DNA of 36,941 nucleotides, from positions 1 through 36,941 of the forward strand of contig JANWZA010000005.1 in assembly GCA_025054775.1 (NCBI GenBank), written 5' to 3'. The position numbers and the translations under genes were made by a program. This document shows, piece after piece, positions 1-26,912 of the stretch (position 1 is the first letter of the stretch; every line of letters starts with the position of its first letter). The stretch is from Microscillaceae bacterium (lineage in GTDB: Bacteria; Bacteroidota; Bacteroidia; Cytophagales; Microscillaceae). The notes under the pieces are model-generated. The model was not told the origin of the DNA and did no database searches. It worked only from the letters and a program-made list of their open reading frames with translations.

Positions 1-1761
1 GTGGTATTCTTTGAGGCGTTTGCCGTTGCGGTCAAGTAAAATTTTGAGGTCGTTTTTAATAGCAATTATTTCGTTTAAGGCAGACACGAGAAAATGCCCT
101 GAACCTACGGCATTGTCGCAAATTTTGAGGCTATTTACAATTTCATTAGCTTCGTGTCGGTCTTCAATATGGTTGTAGAGGTCTTCAAAAGTTTGGCACC
201 TCCAGCCTTTTACTTCATTGAATTTTTGCAAGACGGCTTTTCGTATCGTTTCACGGCACATATACATCGTGATAAAGCCGGGCGTAAAAAAAGAGCCTTC
301 CTTGTAGCCGTTAATTTTCTCAAAAATTAGCCCCAGCACTGCTGCATTTATGAGCGTTTTGTTTTGCTCTTGGATTTCCTCGTTGCCTTCTGCCCCAAAG
401 TCGTAAGCATCAAGGAATTGCAAAAGGTAGGGCAAAGTAGGGAGTTTGCCCACAAGTCGGTTGCCGTTTCGGTCTTTGAGTACGGTTTGTGGATGCAAAG
501 GAATAGATTTGTTATCTTGTAAGTTGCTGATAAACAGTGCAGTTTGTTCTAATTCAGTAGGTTCAAACAAAGCAGAGTTGAGGTAAGGTACTTTCTCAAA
601 GTCTTGTCTAATTTCTGCATTTCGCTCTTGGGGCTTGCGTGCCAACACTTGGAAAAATAAGCTATTCAAATCACCCAAATTTTTTATTTTGTTTGGGCTT
701 AAAAAAGCATATTCGGCATTTCCCTCGTGGTATTGGAGTAGTTGTGCCTCTAATAGTTTGAGAAACAAAATACGATTTATCCAAGTAATGGTTAGCTCTA
801 AGGCAATGCCAAAAAGTTGCTCTTGGGGATTGTCGCCAAACTGTTCGAGGTTGGGTAAATGGTTTAGCTTATCCAAGGTTTCAAGTTGGGTAATGGTATT
901 TTCTAGGATTGAACCTGGGTGCCTGTCTTTGGGCTGGTTTCGTTCGATGAGTTTTTTGCCGCCCTTTTGCACTTCGGTTAGCCCCATGATATGTAGCAAT
1001 TCGTTGTAAAAATCTTGGTCTAGGGTGTTGCTATCGTTGGCAAAGGGCAAATGGAGTAGGTGTTCAGGGGAGAAGATTTTGAAAAGCGGAATGAGTTGTT
1101 TGTCGTCTTCTTTGTTTTCGCTTTGTACCCAGGTTCGGTAGGTTCGCAAATCAAAATAGGTAAATTTGATTTCTGCTGTACTTTGGGCAACCCACGGCTC
1201 GGCAATTTGTTTGTAAAAAAATTCGGTACGATTATCTATCAACCTGCCTGCTTCAAAATCATTGAACTTACTTACTAATTCTTGGTTTTGGGCAATTATT
1301 CGCTCAAAAGTACTGCCCTCAAAAATAAACCATTGGTATAAGTTGGTAATAATTAAGTGCTTGATTTCTAAGTTATTATGTGTAAATCGTTCTCTTAAAA
1401 AATACAAAATCAATTCGTGAAAAGCCTTTGCGTTGAGGTTGTCAGGCGAGGGCATTTCACTATGGTTGGTAGGTTTTTTAGTTTCCATTAGCACAGCCAC
1501 AGGGCTTTGGGGAGTCTTATCGCGGTGAATAACCAAGTCGTTTCGTCCTTTAGTATTGATAAAGTAGTTAGGTTGGTAATAGGTTTGTTTCAAAAATTCG
1601 GCAAGCAAATTTTTGTGAAACTCCTCGCTTTCTTGCTCGTTTATTTGGCTAAACAAAACTCGCAAATGTTGCTTAAAAGCGTCTATTTGAGTACGTGTAG
1701 GTTTGAGCCGCAAAAAGGCTTTGTTAAGGGCATGGCGTATTTTGAGGGCGATGGCTATCAT
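1..1761 (-). CDS. Type IIG restriction-modification enzyme (Eco57I-like), N-terminal part, truncated by window edge
   Basis: The minus-strand frame is open for 587 codons from ATG 1761 to the left edge, so the C-terminus is missing. Residues 1-100 look like a PD-(D/E)xK nuclease: D75 in GRNDLVI and E93-x-K95 in VLMETKKP. A long helical connector follows. Near residues 545-560 comes CDNAVGSGHFLVSALNE, which matches SAM-binding motif I of gamma-class N6-adenine methyltransferases, where the usual start is DPAxGSG. Nuclease plus methylase in one chain is the type IIG design, which cuts and methylates the same DNA site without a separate specificity subunit. The catalytic NPPY motif and target-recognition part would lie outside the window. 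The gene is divergent from cysS and no partner gene is visible. The frame is open further upstream but has no better start; a TATTTTTG promoter match lies at 1812-1819. Asn in place of Pro in motif I is the only oddity. The family call is fairly safe. Confidence 0.85.
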   Translation of the reverse strand, partial: MIAIALKIRHALNKAFLRLKPTRTQIDAFKQHLRVLFSQINEQESEEFHKNLLAEFLKQTYYQPNYFINTKGRNDLVIHRDKTPQSPVAVLMETKKPTNHSEMPSPDNLNAKAFHELILYFLRERFTHNNLEIKHLIITNLYQWFIFEGSTFERIIAQNQELVSKFNDFEAGRLIDNRTEFFYKQIAEPWVAQSTAEIKFTYFDLRTYRTWVQSENKEDDKQLIPLFKIFSPEHLLHLPFANDSNTLDQDFYNELLHIMGLTEVQKGGKKLIERNQPKDRHPGSILENTITQLETLDKLNHLPNLEQFGDNPQEQLFGIALELTITWINRILFLKLLEAQLLQYHEGNAEYAFLSPNKIKNLGDLNSLFFQVLARKPQERNAEIRQDFEKVPYLNSALFEPTELEQTALFISNLQDNKSIPLHPQTVLKDRNGNRLVGKLPTLPYLLQFLDAYDFGAEGNEEIQEQNKTLINAAVLGLIFEKINGYKEGSFFTPGFITMYMCRETIRKAVLQKFNEVKGWRCQTFEDLYNHIEDRHEANEIVNSLKICDNAVGSGHFLVSALNEIIAIKNDLKILLDRNGKRLKEYH

Positions 1762-1811
1762 AGCTTGAACATTTTTGCTTGTTTCAAAGGTAAGAATTTG
1801 ATAGTTAAATG

Positions 1812-1819
1812 CAAAAATA
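1812..1819 (-). promoter_or_regulatory. Candidate -7 element (TATTTTTG) for the restriction-modification gene
   Basis: This is a full match to the Bacteroidota -7 consensus TAnnTTTG, and it is followed by C as often seen. It lies about 50 bases upstream of ATG 1761 and points towards it. No clear -33 TTTG box sits at the expected distance, so the match could be chance in AT-rich DNA. Confidence 0.35.
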
Positions 1820-1878
1820 CAACACAAAATTTCTAAAAATTAGCATTTGCAATTTTTTTCAAGATATTTCTGTAATTT

Positions 1879-3532: not shown

Positions 3533-4147
3533 ATGAAACGAAGTATTTTGCTTGTCAGTTTGTTGTGGGGTGTGTGGCTATTCAATTTTGCCTATGCCCA
3601 AAGTCCTGTTATGAAATTTATCAATGGAGAGAAAAAGAATTTCAAAACTACGCAATTAGCGAAGGCACAAGGGCTTTCGCTTGCTATAGACTACCCCAAA
3701 GAATGGAAAAACGAAGAGGACAAACAGCCCTATGTTTTGCAAAAATTTACAAGAACTTACGATAAGGTTACCGCCCAAGTAGCCATTTGCATGCAAATTA
3801 TCAAAAATGCTGACGAGATAACCCAACTCAAAGAAGCTATACAAAGCAATTCATTTGAGCAAATAAAGCCGTATCTTGCACTTATCAATCCTGAAAAAGA
3901 TATAACCTTTTCGCAGGGCATGACCTACAAAATAAAAGATGCCGATGGCTTTTGGCTCAAAGGTACAAAAAAAGTGGCTGATAATCAATTCATTTTTTAT
4001 AAAACTTATTTTTGGATTTTCAACGATAGGCTTATTATTTTGCCTTTTAGCACCACGGGCGAAACTGCCGAACAAGCAAGCAAAAATTTTAGCAAATACG
4101 AGTCGCTTTTCAAACTTATGTTAGAAAGTGTTTTTGTGGGAAACTAA
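3533..4147 (+). CDS. Exported protein of unknown function
   Basis: A 204-residue protein with a clear signal peptide (MKRS, then a hydrophobic stretch, then an AYA-Q cleavage site near residue 22), so it is probably periplasmic. The mature part begins with a Lys-rich segment. It then has LAIDYPKEWKNEE, a pattern like the opening strand of PsbP/DcrB-type folds (x-x-Y-P-x-x-W), and a mixed alpha/beta body. No catalytic motif and only one cysteine are visible. It follows cysS by 60 bases; a one-mismatch promoter element (TATATCTG, 3500-3507) suggests its own promoter. The next gene starts 284 bases later, so it is likely transcribed alone. The PsbP/DcrB similarity is by eye only. I do not assign a function. 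Confidence 0.8.
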   Translation: MKRSILLVSLLWGVWLFNFAYAQSPVMKFINGEKKNFKTTQLAKAQGLSLAIDYPKEWKNEEDKQPYVLQKFTRTYDKVTAQVAICMQIIKNADEITQLKEAIQSNSFEQIKPYLALINPEKDITFSQGMTYKIKDADGFWLKGTKKVADNQFIFYKTYFWIFNDRLIILPFSTTGETAEQASKNFSKYESLFKLMLESVFVGN

Positions 4148-7748: not shown

Positions 7749-8621
7749 ATGATAAAAAAAATCTTAAGTAAAATACGCAACTATGAAATCCGAATGAGAA
7801 AAGCCGTCAATGCGCATCTACGCGGTAGTTTTCATTCAGTTTTCAAAGGGGCAGGGTTGGAATTTGAAGATGTACGTATGTATCAGTATGGGGATGATGT
7901 ACGCCGTATTGACTGGAACGTGAGTGCCAAAGGAGAAGGAACCTTTGTAAAAGTTTTTAAGGAGGAAAAAGAACAAACCGTTTTTTTCCTACTGGATGTA
8001 AGCCGCTCACAAGAATTAGGTAAAGAAACCCAAACAAAAATAGATATTGGCAAAGAGATTTGTGGGGTGCTTGCCCTCGCTGCTGCCAAAGAGCAGAGCC
8101 AAGTAGGATTAATTTGTTTCAGCGACCAAAAGGAAAAATACATTAAACCTGACAAAGGAGTAAAAAAAGCTTATGAAATTATTTTGAATCTTTTGAAACT
8201 AAAGCCCAAGTCTTCACAAACTAATTTAACAACTTTTATCCAGTATGCCCTCAACCTCATTAAACGGCGAAGTATTGTTATTCTGATTTCAGATTTCATT
8301 GACCAAAACTATCACGATGCCCTGCGTGCCATGGCACGTAAACATGACCTCATAGTTATTCACCTTATAGATGCTACTGAAATGCAAATGCCCAAAATGG
8401 GAATTGTGCCACTCTTTGACAAGGAAAGTCAAAAAGTAATATGGGTGAACTCCTCATCCGAGGCTTTTCAGCAAGCCCTCAAGCAACGAATAGAAGCTAA
8501 TTGTAAAGAATTAGAAACTTTTTGCCGAAAAAATAAAGTCAATTATTTAGCTATTTATACGCATGAAGATTTCGTTCCTAAATTGGTACGGCTTTTCAAA
8601 ATACGTAATCGTGAAGCTTAA
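7749..8621 (+). CDS. DUF58 domain protein (VWA-like)
   Basis: A 290-residue cytoplasmic or membrane-associated protein. It carries the DUF58 signature MYQYGDDVRRIDWNVSA near residues 40-56 and a VWA-like metal-ion site, DVSRS, near residue 84, which fits the DxSxS MIDAS motif. DUF58 proteins normally work with MoxR AAA+ ATPases in complex assembly or metal-insertion roles. Here no MoxR gene is adjacent. The gene is 14 bases after the DUF4175 gene and overlaps the following gene by about 11 bases, a tight operon arrangement implying coupled translation. No transmembrane helix is present, unlike longer DUF58 proteins that have two at the N-terminus. The family call is strong and the role is inferred. 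Confidence 0.92.
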   Translation: MIKKILSKIRNYEIRMRKAVNAHLRGSFHSVFKGAGLEFEDVRMYQYGDDVRRIDWNVSAKGEGTFVKVFKEEKEQTVFFLLDVSRSQELGKETQTKIDIGKEICGVLALAAAKEQSQVGLICFSDQKEKYIKPDKGVKKAYEIILNLLKLKPKSSQTNLTTFIQYALNLIKRRSIVILISDFIDQNYHDALRAMARKHDLIVIHLIDATEMQMPKMGIVPLFDKESQKVIWVNSSSEAFQQALKQRIEANCKELETFCRKNKVNYLAIYTHEDFVPKLVRLFKIRNREA

Positions 8622-9546
8622 ATTTGGATTCATAATTTATTTACTTTTAACCTCAGCAAACTATTTTGCCCAAACTCCTATCCAACCCGCAAGTCATACT
8701 TCTCAAAGAGGGATAAACAAACCTGTGGGGAAGTTTTTAAGTGATAGTATCGGTATTGGGCTGAAAGTGGCTTACTCACTCTCATACAAACACCCTGCTG
8801 ACCAAACCATACTTTTTCCTGACTCTACTTTCAATTTCTTCCCCTTTGAACTAATTGAAAAAGTATATTACCCTACCCGCACCCAAAACCAACAAAGTAC
8901 GGATAGCGTAGTTTATTTCCTCACCACCTTTGAAACGCGCAAAGTTCTCCCTTTACAGTTACCTGTTTACTGGGTGCAAGGAAAAGATAGCTTACTTATT
9001 TGGGCGGAGAAGGACTCCGTATTTTTGCAGGAATTGGTAAAAGGCAACCCTGCTAAACTGAAACTACGTACCGAAACTAATTACTATCCTACCGAGGAAT
9101 TATTTGACTATCCGTTACTCATTACTGTCATTATTTCAGCCTTTTTATTGCTCTTACTGATATGGCTATTTTTGGGCAAGCATCTTATCAAAACTTTTCT
9201 ATTGTATCAATTCAGAACACGCCACAACCGCTTTTTGCGTGAATTTACTCGTCTTATGAACAAAATTACAGAGCAACAATCTACCAAAGACATTACCAAA
9301 GCCCTTGCCCTCTGGAAAAAACACTTAGAATATTTAGAGCAACGCCCTTTTAGTAGTTATACCTCTAAAGAAATTGCTCGCGAAATTCCCGATAATCGGC
9401 TTATTACCTCACTCAAAAATATTGATAAAGTAATCTACGGTGGAGAGCTATCAGAAGATATTGAAAGTTCACTACAATTTTTGCGCAGCTTTTCTAACTT
9501 CCGATTTGAGCAAAAACAAGAGCAATTACGCCAAGGAAAAACCTAA
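8611..9546 (+). CDS. BatD/DUF4381-like membrane protein
   Basis: About 311 residues when started at GTG 8611. Layout: signal peptide (residues 1-21, ending NYFAQ), an extracytoplasmic mostly beta region, one membrane helix at about 168-189 (YPLLITVIISAFLLLLLIWL) and a basic helical cytoplasmic tail of about 120 residues. That order matches the BatD-like or DUF4381 proteins that follow DUF58 genes in Bat-type operons. An ATG at 8563 is also in frame. It would add 16 residues that merely read the conserved 3' end of the DUF58 gene in another frame and would push the signal peptide inside, so GTG 8611 is preferred. Third and last gene of the cassette: an aconitase gene with its own promoter follows after 180 bases. 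Confidence 0.75.
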   Translation: MKLKFGFIIYLLLTSANYFAQTPIQPASHTSQRGINKPVGKFLSDSIGIGLKVAYSLSYKHPADQTILFPDSTFNFFPFELIEKVYYPTRTQNQQSTDSVVYFLTTFETRKVLPLQLPVYWVQGKDSLLIWAEKDSVFLQELVKGNPAKLKLRTETNYYPTEELFDYPLLITVIISAFLLLLLIWLFLGKHLIKTFLLYQFRTRHNRFLREFTRLMNKITEQQSTKDITKALALWKKHLEYLEQRPFSSYTSKEIAREIPDNRLITSLKNIDKVIYGGELSEDIESSLQFLRSFSNFRFEQKQEQLRQGKT

Positions 9547-24623: not shown

Positions 24624-26342
24624 TTATTTTCGCGGGGCAGGAGCATTATACAATAGTTTGTAGTATTCGTCTGCCATACGTGTGGAGGTGAAATAAGCTA
24701 ATACATCTTTGCGGCTTTGTTTTACAATTTCAATCCATTTATCAGGATTATCATAGTAGGTAGGAATTACCTCTTTTTCAAGAAGGTTGTATATATTGTT
24801 ACAATCCTGTTTGTCAATTTCTTCTATGGGTAGGGTTTCATCTACTATAGGGGCGACAAAACTATTGACACCATGCTTGGCAAACTCACAAATCCAGCCG
24901 TCAAGAATAGAGACGTTTACGGCGCCGTTCATAGCGGCAGTCATACCACTTGTACCGGAGGCCTCGCGCGGTCTGCGTGGGGTATTGAGCCAAACATCTG
25001 CGCCGCATTTGAGCAAGCGCGAGAGGGTCATTTCATAGCCTGTAAGAATAGCCAAATTAGGATAGTTTTTAGTAAATTCTACTAATTTATTAAAAATTTT
25101 TATTGCACTTTGGTCAAGGGGATAGGGTTTTCCTGCCCAAATAATTTGAATAGGATACTTAAGATTTTTTACTAATTTCTCAAATCGCTCTAAGTCTTTC
25201 AAAAGGAGATCGGCACGTTTGTAGCTGGCAAAACGTCTTGCCCAAACGATGGTCAGGATTTCAGAGTGAAATATTTTTCCTGTTTGGTCAGCTACTACGT
25301 AAAAAAGATCTTTTTTCATTTCGTGTTTTCGTTCGATAATGGCTTCTTTATCTCCTGACTCACAGGCACGTGCAAAGGCTTTATCTTCCCAAAATTTTTG
25401 GTCTTGGGCATTAGTAATAGCAATTATCTTGCAAATATCAGGGTAAGGTTTCCACATTTCTTGGGCAACTTTGCCGTGCAGTTGCGAAACACCGTTAGCA
25501 ATTTTAGAGAAACGCAAAGCTGTAAGTGTATAATTAAGGCGAGGCTCGTTATAGGTAAATTTCAAAATTTCTTCTTTGGAAAGGAACTTGCCAAAAAAGC
25601 ACATTTCGTTCAAAAAGTGGGCATCATGTTCCTCATTTCCAGCCAATTCAGGAGTGTGGGTAGTGAAGACAAAATGCTTTTTAAGTTCTTTGATATTGTT
25701 GTTAAATTTTTCATTTAGAAGATAAAAAGCCAAAGGCAGGGCGTGTCCTTCGTTAATGTGATAAATATCGGCTCCTCCTAAAATATCTACTAATTTGCCT
25801 CCTCCAATTCCCAAGACAATGCTTTGAGCTACGCGTGTCTGTACGTTGTTATCGTATAAACGTTCTGTAATGGTACGTGCAAGGTAGTCATTTTCAGGCA
25901 CATCAGTACTCAAAAAGTACATAGGTACAGTACCAAATACCTCAGGAGCGAGATAATAGACTTTTACCCAAACATTAGGGTTTTGATGTACTTGTACGGT
26001 AAGTTTGATGCCTGTATCTTGTAAGTAGCTGTATGATTTTTCTTTGAATAGTACGCCCATTGTATTGTCAGGGTTGCGTACTTGGTCATAATAGCCAAAT
26101 TTCCAAAGGATACCAATGCCGATAAGGTTTTGCTTCAAATCATAAGCACTTCTCATGTGCGAACCTGCCAAAAAGCCTAAACCTCCTGAGTAGATTTTGA
26201 AGTGTTGGTCAATAGCAAATTCCATACAGAAGTATGCTACCTTCTTTTTGTATTGCTCTGCGGGTGTGTAAGGATGCGCCCACTTTACAGCGGGTTTAGA
26301 GGTAGTTTCAACTGTTGTTTTTACTGCCGCTTTTCTTGCCAT
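24624..26342 (-). CDS. glgP: Alpha-glucan phosphorylase-family protein (short GT35) with Thr at the PLP-lysine position
   Basis: A 572-residue protein aligned by eye with the short archaeal/Thermotoga-type GlgP family, which releases glucose 1-phosphate from glycogen using pyridoxal phosphate. Landmarks are YSGGLGFLAGSH (51-62), INEGHALPLA (197-206), FTTHTPELAGNEEHD (226-240), the phosphate-contact segment ARRFASYKRADLLL (368-381) and WLNTPRRPREASGTSGM (451-467). The residue after GTSGM, which is the PLP Schiff-base Lys in phosphorylases, is Thr468 here. Some positions that are usually Asp or Pro (LAGDH, THTPVPAG) also differ. It may have lost phosphorolysis, use another residue, or belong to a diverged clade. 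No glycogen genes are adjacent. The N-terminal 30 residues are a Lys/Thr-rich extension. Confidence 0.88.
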   Translation of the reverse strand: MARKAAVKTTVETTSKPAVKWAHPYTPAEQYKKKVAYFCMEFAIDQHFKIYSGGLGFLAGSHMRSAYDLKQNLIGIGILWKFGYYDQVRNPDNTMGVLFKEKSYSYLQDTGIKLTVQVHQNPNVWVKVYYLAPEVFGTVPMYFLSTDVPENDYLARTITERLYDNNVQTRVAQSIVLGIGGGKLVDILGGADIYHINEGHALPLAFYLLNEKFNNNIKELKKHFVFTTHTPELAGNEEHDAHFLNEMCFFGKFLSKEEILKFTYNEPRLNYTLTALRFSKIANGVSQLHGKVAQEMWKPYPDICKIIAITNAQDQKFWEDKAFARACESGDKEAIIERKHEMKKDLFYVVADQTGKIFHSEILTIVWARRFASYKRADLLLKDLERFEKLVKNLKYPIQIIWAGKPYPLDQSAIKIFNKLVEFTKNYPNLAILTGYEMTLSRLLKCGADVWLNTPRRPREASGTSGMTAAMNGAVNVSILDGWICEFAKHGVNSFVAPIVDETLPIEEIDKQDCNNIYNLLEKEVIPTYYDNPDKWIEIVKQSRKDVLAYFTSTRMADEYYKLLYNAPAPRK

Positions 26343-26516: not shown

Positions 26517-26912
26517 TTACAGAAAGATACAAGCCTTTCCAGTTTTCTTTACTTTCCCAAATTTTATGGCATCTTCCCAAATATTCTCTCCTTCTAAAAC
26601 TTTTTTTGTTAGTTTTTTCATAGGTTCTGCAAGTGGAACGTTAATTTTGAGCGTTAGTTGTAGTTTGGTTTGCTTAGATAAATTTTTGACACTGAACATC
26701 AACTCTTTCAAGGATTGCAAATAGTCAAATTTATTTTTATCTATTTCAATTTGATTTTGTATGAATGGTAAACCTTTGGTGGCTACTACTGGAATGAGAA
26801 CAAAATAAATCCAGTAATCTTGTTCAAAGAATAACTTATCAATCACTTTCAATCCGTTCACGGCTATCCATTTATTGCCTTTTTGCATAGTTTTCACTTC
26901 TATTTTTCTCAC
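26517..26912 (-). CDS. Small protein of unknown function
   Basis: A 131-residue basic protein starting at GTG 26912; an in-frame ATG at 26888 is the alternative start and would remove eight residues. No signal peptide and no membrane helix. One hydrophobic segment (DYWIYFVLIPVVATKGLPFI) could be a buried strand-turn-strand. The remainder alternates strands and Lys-rich helices and ends KKTGKACIFL. I do not recognise the family. It lies 174 bases upstream of the phosphorylase gene on the same strand and is divergent from the CcoI gene. Nothing in its context points to a role, and the coding status rests on length and codon pattern only. Confidence 0.6.
   Translation of the reverse strand: MRKIEVKTMQKGNKWIAVNGLKVIDKLFFEQDYWIYFVLIPVVATKGLPFIQNQIEIDKNKFDYLQSLKELMFSVKNLSKQTKLQLTLKINVPLAEPMKKLTKKVLEGENIWEDAIKFGKVKKTGKACIFL

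Follow-up and report, generated by a model that had tools for sequence, protein, structure and literature searches.

The window, as we call the whole 36,941-nucleotide stretch of DNA analyzed here, encodes a GT35 homolog in which the lysine that binds pyridoxal phosphate (PLP) in glycogen phosphorylases is replaced by a threonine. We put the odds at about even (a probability near 0.5) that this gene is part of a monophyletic GT35 branch that lacks the PLP lysine and would act in intracellular alpha-glucan metabolism, carrying out retaining GT-B glucosyl transfer with a diffusible phosphate-bearing ligand in the place of PLP. In the proposed mechanism, the Lys-free protein would be an enzyme performing retaining front-face glucosyl transfer, as GT-B enzymes do, and the second phosphate would be supplied by the diffusible ligand rather than by covalently held PLP. 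Glucose would probably then be moved by a chemistry other than the one that the database name implies. Judged by their sequences, the members of the clade are GT35 homologs that lack the defining PLP lysine, and a search of mainly open-access literature returned no published description of such a clade, which is weak evidence of its novelty.

The window protein is a member of the GT35/TIGR02094 homology family by both model score and GT-B fold. It scored 453.1 bits against TIGR02094, the alpha-glucan family phosphorylase model (cut-off, 191.7), and 56.7 bits against PF00343 (cut-off, 27), and it reached only 28.4 bits against TIGR02095, the full-length GT5/glgA model (cut-off, 328.45). A profile search of the window genome returned a single PF00343 match, the window gene itself. 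The N-terminal extension found in long Lys-type proteins, before residue 30 or thereabouts, is absent from it. An AlphaFold2 model built from 52 aligned sequences had a pLDDT of 90.4 and a pTM of 0.90. The first-pass annotation had reported an intact frame, a threonine following GTSGM where the PLP lysine is expected, and a retained ARRFASYKR segment, and all three observations held up (Table 1). A site alignment combined 116 Lys-free proteins, that of the window among them, with 21 Lys-bearing proteins and E. coli MalP and GlgP. In it, Thr468 occupied the same column as MalP K646, which a section of a review (PMC11046441) identifies as the PLP lysine.

Table 1. Features of the Lys-free GT35 gene, in window coordinates
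Feature	Position	Strand	Basis and remarks
Lys-free GT35 (TIGR02094) homolog, 572 aa, single gene	24624-26342	minus	Open reading frame without internal stop
GGLG loop, residues 53-56	26175-26186	minus	Alignment; invariant in Lys-free and Lys-type proteins
N311-A312-Q313	25404-25412	minus	Alignment; N311 (MalP N450) invariant
WARRFASYKR, residues 367-376, phosphate-site segment	25215-25244	minus	Alignment; R369, R370 and K375 correspond to MalP K534, R535 and K540
G435-Y436-E437, clade-specific	25032-25040	minus	Alignment
Lys445, candidate relocated lysine	25008-25010	minus	Alignment
GTSGMTA, residues 463-469 (GTSGM, 463-467)	24936-24956	minus	Translation and alignment
Thr468 codon, in place of the PLP lysine	24941-24939	minus	Translation and alignment

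The replacement is shared by a large set of relatives. Across all loci retrieved, 156 distinct proteins had a readable EA(S/C/A)GTSG motif; one distant locus (L155) was left out of the counts since its motif was unreadable. We took as close homologs those that aligned with the window protein across 450 residues or more at an identity of 50% or higher, which gave 129 proteins, the window protein included, with a lowest identity of 51.7%. The Schiff-base position in these was Thr in 105, Ser in 23, Ala in 1 and Lys in none, so that a lysine at this column was missing from 129 of 129, whereas all 27 of the more distant homologs with a readable motif (40.7% identity or less) had the lysine. The alignment placed no substitute lysine at the Schiff-base position, the result that the first-pass annotation had named as refuting its reading. 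This division argues that Thr468 is neither a chance substitution nor a sequencing error, and the intact frame together with the strong conservation of the clade rules out a pseudogene. The sample was not random, as the contig scan contributed the 80 best stretches out of 591 confirmed and the genome-search loci were best matches. Among those best 80 of 591, Lys-free carriers included Flavobacteriaceae, Chryseobacterium, Pedobacter, Hymenobacter, Algoriphagus and Akkermansia, along with Sulfurovum, Sulfuricurvum and two Halopseudomonas species. The impression, voiced earlier, that the threonine might be a trait of a Bacteroidota clade thus proved correct and too narrow, since by sequence the Lys-free proteins form one clade across Bacteroidota, Campylobacterota, Verrucomicrobiota and Halopseudomonas. 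The single alanine (GTSGMA) was found at L166:8726-10366, in the same genome as L144 and G483, and indicates that a hydroxyl at the Schiff-base column is not strictly needed in the clade. Three loci labeled as Sphingomonadales or Beijerinckiaceae (L049, L054 and L090; Alphaproteobacteria) had Chitinophagaceae-like sequences and possibly come from mislabeled or mixed bins.

In a quick tree of 67 rows, the Lys-free proteins formed one group (SH-aLRT, 100) on a stem of 1.2 changes per column, with two short Lys-type Bacteroidota proteins, L010 and L120, as its sister (SH-aLRT, 98). Forcing all 21 Lys-type rows together gave a slightly better fit, by 4.55 log units (p-AU, 0.64). A tree with all Lys-bearing GT35 proteins together, apart from the Lys-free clade plus GT5, was likewise unrejected (p-AU, 0.416), with a warning for long branches. 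A single loss of the lysine is favored by parsimony only, and an ancestral absence, in which the lysine was never gained in the Lys-free lineage, is not rejected by the tree tests. The interval from TN(A/G) to RRxxxYKR was 57 to 59 residues in the Lys-free clade, L010 and L120, compared with 76 to 102 in 18 other Lys-type rows (one row unmeasured) and 85 in both MalP and GlgP; the corresponding interval in GT5 was 50 to 53. The short interval groups the clade with L010 and L120, but GT5 is short too, and the interval therefore leaves the choice between loss and ancestral absence undecided. Within the clade, a Halopseudomonas row (L092, considered together with a second Halopseudomonas locus, L097) fell inside Bacteroidota, next to Pontibacter (84); the rows from Verrucomicrobiota (L077 and L094) were also placed inside, a nesting that suggests lateral transfer.

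The Lys-free proteins retain the residues with which PLP phosphorylases contact glucose and phosphate. Glucose contacts listed for potato Pho1 in a portion of PMC11465516 (N561, R647, Y651, E754, A755, S756 and G757) map by spacing to N311, R370, Y374, E460, A461, S462 and G463, and each of these, as well as K375 and T464, was present in 116 of 116 Lys-free proteins, with R369 an arginine in 115 and a lysine in one. Viewed by sequence, the Schiff-base lysine is gone, and the residues for the glucosyl group, for the phosphate of the substrate (R370 and K375) and at the former site of the PLP phosphate (R369 and T464) are kept. MalP K534 and K540 coordinate phosphates, and K554 is also named, in a section of PMC11046441; the K554 column varied in both the Lys-free and Lys-type classes of the site alignment. 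The near invariance of the glucose and phosphate residues suggests that the Lys-free protein would be an active enzyme. The GT5 synthases have G or S at position 369 and L at 464 (10 of 10), in contrast to R369 and T464, which stay GT35-like, and this retention suggests that a phosphate may still bind there.

The surroundings of the former anchor have changed in a clade-specific way. Conserved columns particular to the clade are 312, 313, 366, 367, 406, 407, 435, 437 and 445, with V366, P406 and Y407 among them. The Lys-type proteins have F (20) or Y (1) in the column of W367 (n = 21) and NG[IVT] where the Lys-free proteins have A or S at 312 and Q313. The residue before the pocket tyrosine is G in the Lys-free clade, N or D in 20 of 21 Lys-type proteins, and G in 10 of 10 GT5 synthases. 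When the columns were compared with 10 GT5 sequences, G435 and L440 were GT5-like, and V366, W367, P406, Y407, K445 and T468 were unlike GT5; at columns 366 and 367, the Lys-type proteins were closer to GT5 than the Lys-free clade was. Presumably, then, the phosphate site has been kept and the anchor region rebuilt, probably into a roomier one that might hold something of nucleoside size.

No glycogen gene lay near the Lys-free gene in the window, where the neighbors encode a DsbD-like protein, a heavy-metal P-type ATPase, LytB, aconitase, cysteinyl-tRNA synthetase and others. The window had no tRNA or Rfam family over threshold and no terminator-like site, and it had 14 promoter-like matches against 9.0 expected. 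Other features of the window were a protein with DUF7149 and DUF7814 domains truncated by the window end (1-1827, minus strand) and three open reading frames without a Pfam match (3533-4147, plus, 204 aa; 8563-9546, plus, 327 aa; 26517-26912, minus, 131 aa). Broad synteny was not found among the best 80 of 591 stretches, the commonest neighbor cluster occurring in 16 of 80 loci, and no recurring partner gene was seen in the Bacteroidota loci. In Campylobacterota, with gene names assigned by eye, the Lys-free gene was found with glgA, an ROK kinase gene and glgB (L099 and L171), with GAPDH, PGK and PFK-like genes (L084), with GH57, GalT-like, ROK and PFK-like genes (L115), with glgB and pgm (L109), and with pgm (L119). 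By family models, the order at L161 was Lys-type GT35, phosphoglucomutase, glucose-6-phosphate isomerase, Lys-free GT35 and a sugar-nucleotidyltransferase/mutase fusion, and L162 to L164 matched this order by sequence start. Family models at L166 identified a GalT-like protein, an ROK kinase and glucose-6-phosphate isomerase near the Lys-free gene.

Among 121 Campylobacterota genomes, 14 had a strong GlgA, defined as a GT5 match above 200 bits, and two more had a weak one. The Lys-free gene was present in 13 of the 14 genomes with a strong GlgA and in 0 of the other 107 (Fisher p = 1.4e-16, kinship ignored). It was the sole GT35 gene in 7 of the 13 carriers; the remaining 6 had a second, distant GT35, in five of which the lysine could be read. 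This co-occurrence, and the loci that run from Lys-type GT35 through pgm and pgi to the Lys-free gene, point to a role in alpha-glucan metabolism rather than to a mere spare copy of a PLP enzyme. The presence of a Lys-type GT35 in the same cluster at L161 to L164 likewise speaks against plain redundancy.

The analysis also covered 48 genomes that carry the Lys-free gene. No other TIGR02094 match was found in 40 of them. The other eight comprised one genome whose second gene was Lys-type (G005), three in which the residue of the second gene was unread (G409, G414 and G415) and four with a close second copy; in Bacteroidota, G113, G204, G314 and G405 had a second copy at 52 to 55% identity. The phylum sample contained, apart from the window genome, 41 genomes with a match at E below 1e-180 (37 with one match and 4 with two, both at 52 to 55% identity), and none of these 41 had a Lys-type match, only three candidates having been scored in some. 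A general mutual exclusion of the two types was considered and is ruled out by G005 and by 6 of the 13 Campylobacterota carriers, which have both. The absence of another TIGR02094 protein from 40 of 48 genomes, and of a second GT35 from 7 of 13 Campylobacterota carriers, counts against non-redundancy and fits a simple stand-in for phosphorylase.

Routes of glucan synthesis varied among the carriers. A PF08323 match was present in 46 of 48, several of these being fragments of 268 to 330 aa or weak, and a branching enzyme over the cut-off was present in 36 of 48; GlgE was found in 15, and a GT3 synthase in 8, of the 34 searched. The idea that the Lys-free protein replaces a synthase was dropped in view of the GT5 in 13 of 13 Campylobacterota carriers and of those 46 PF08323 matches. 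The window genome had a GlgC (431.6 bits) and two strong GT5 matches, in frames of 480 and 329 aa. Its best branching-enzyme (GH13) match, at 58.4 bits, was under the cut-off; branching may be done there by another family or be absent. Two genomes, G002 and G004, had the Lys-free gene and GlgE and had no GlgC over the cut-off, no full-length GT5 match and no GT3 match, so that ADP-glucose synthesis is not a constant partner of the gene. What constantly accompanies the gene is alpha-glucan metabolism, not any single synthesis route. As a separate observation, neither GlgE nor GT3, and neither a strong full-length GT5 nor a branching enzyme above the cut-off, was found in G125, which carries the Lys-free gene. 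A short orphan GT5 N-terminal domain was also seen beside or instead of a full GlgA, at C6:37679-38335 in the window genome and as frames of 268 to 330 aa in many Bacteroidota; a conserved GlgA-GT5 fragment in Bacteroidetes is mentioned in a passage of a review.

Several other explanations compete with a ligand-dependent enzyme. The first-pass annotation had offered two, that the protein lost phosphorolysis and kept glucan binding or that it uses a different chemistry. The former, a noncatalytic glucan-binding or regulatory pseudoenzyme of glycogen metabolism, is improbable in our estimation: a missing cofactor lysine usually signals a pseudoenzyme and a Lys-type phosphorylase does sit in the same cluster at L161 to L164, but the cleft residues, including those that touch nothing other than the transferred glucose and phosphate, show no variation across the 116 proteins or, for R369, almost none. 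Because of these residues, and of the Campylobacterota clusters with glycogen and glycolysis genes, an active enzyme with an altered cofactor site would be the likelier of the two, and a different chemistry is the part of that annotation we favor from the sequences.

An ordinary phosphorylase that holds PLP noncovalently and dispenses with the Schiff base also has little probability. Phosphorylase activity survives reduction of the Schiff base, R369, T464 and Y436 are kept, and the Lys-free gene is so often the sole GT35 of its genome; set against this, the changes at 435, 437, 406 to 407, 367 and 312 to 313 around the site are conserved, and the covalent anchor was never regained in 129 homologs. 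A hydrolase or glucan-to-glucan transferase, whose acceptor would be water or a sugar and which would need no phosphate, could account for the glucokinase-like ROK gene near the Lys-free gene in Campylobacterota L099, L115, L166 and L171, a neighbor that fits release of free glucose (the ROK assignment is model-backed for L166 only). We find that possibility hard to credit, however, given the retention of R370, K375 and the second-phosphate site, and GH13 or GH57 enzymes of the same clusters could provide the glucose. Most improbable by far is a relocated PLP lysine, in which K445 (116 of 116 Lys-free proteins; V, T or I in Lys-type) forms the Schiff base, as in the model it occupies the eighth position of a helix that starts at 438, directly following the G-Y-E that faces the cleft, and its side chain is therefore probably directed away from the cleft.

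If the Lys-free protein indeed uses a diffusible ligand, our tentative first choice is a nucleotide sugar, with NDP-glucose made or used at the end of the alpha-glucan. It is supported by the retention of a site for the second phosphate, by G435 and by the occurrence of the gene beside a Lys-type phosphorylase; only some of the clade-specific columns are GT5-like, and G002 and G004 have no GlgC over the cut-off, both of which weigh against it. The second choice, a more doubtful one, is orthophosphate or pyrophosphate, that is, PLP-free phosphorolysis, for which the adjacency of pgm and pgi and the many genomes without another GT35 speak. More speculatively still, a GT35-fold enzyme with a nucleotide sugar in the PLP pocket would be a surviving link between the glycogen synthases and the glycogen phosphorylases and, in the boldest form, would have retained a pre-PLP state, a reading drawn from the unrejected tree with p-AU 0.416 and the short, GT5-like interval.

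The assignment may have practical consequences. The NCBIfam model would label the Lys-free proteins as "alpha-glucan family phosphorylase", and theirs is the sole such gene in 40 of 48 genomes; if they are not PLP phosphorylases, pathway reconstructions that assign PLP-dependent glycogen phosphorolysis to these bacteria are built on the wrong enzyme. Part of a review (PMC11046441) proposes that a proto-GT35 enzyme acting on NDP-sugars adopted PLP in place of a nucleoside monophosphate, and that proposal becomes testable with purified protein from a GT35 clade that naturally lacks the PLP anchor.

Comparison with known systems places the protein nearest to the phosphorylases. The best solved chain was the Segatella copri glycogen phosphorylase 9l6i (Foldseek E, 4.5e-48; Z, 34.7; rmsd, 2.3; 539 aligned residues; 33% identity). 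Phosphorylase chains spanned Z values of 34.7 to 31.6, with GT5 chains within 1 to 4 Z units of them; E. coli MalP (31.6), Arabidopsis starch synthase IV (6gne; 31.4) and E. coli glycogen synthase (2qzs; 31.0) were all tied by the rule of the tool. The 9l6i protein and other TIGR02094 members with the PLP lysine have glucose and phosphate residues in common with the Lys-free clade, which differs from them in having Thr, Ser or Ala for the lysine, its own pocket columns and a shorter length of about 550 aa. The short Lys-type proteins L010 and L120 resemble the clade in length (roughly 540 to 575 aa) and in their intervals of 57 and 59 residues, but they keep the PLP lysine and are only 40 to 42% identical to the window protein. 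E. coli MalP and GlgP, of the TIGR02093 type, share the GT-B fold and catalytic residues with the window protein; they are about 800 aa long, and MalP, at 20% identity, has the PLP lysine K646. The GT5 synthases (GlgA, 2qzs; SSIV, 6gne) are like the Lys-free clade in their GT-B fold, absence of PLP, glycine before the pocket tyrosine and short interval, but they are 17% identical to the window protein, have G or S at 369 and L at 464, and are unlike it at other clade-specific columns.

The GT4 trehalose phosphorylases are retaining GT-B phosphorylases that need no PLP, and they thus offer a precedent for PLP-free phosphorolysis. They belong to another GT family and act on another substrate than GT35. 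In a section of PMC8950772, these retaining enzymes are thought to share the front-side mechanism of GT35.
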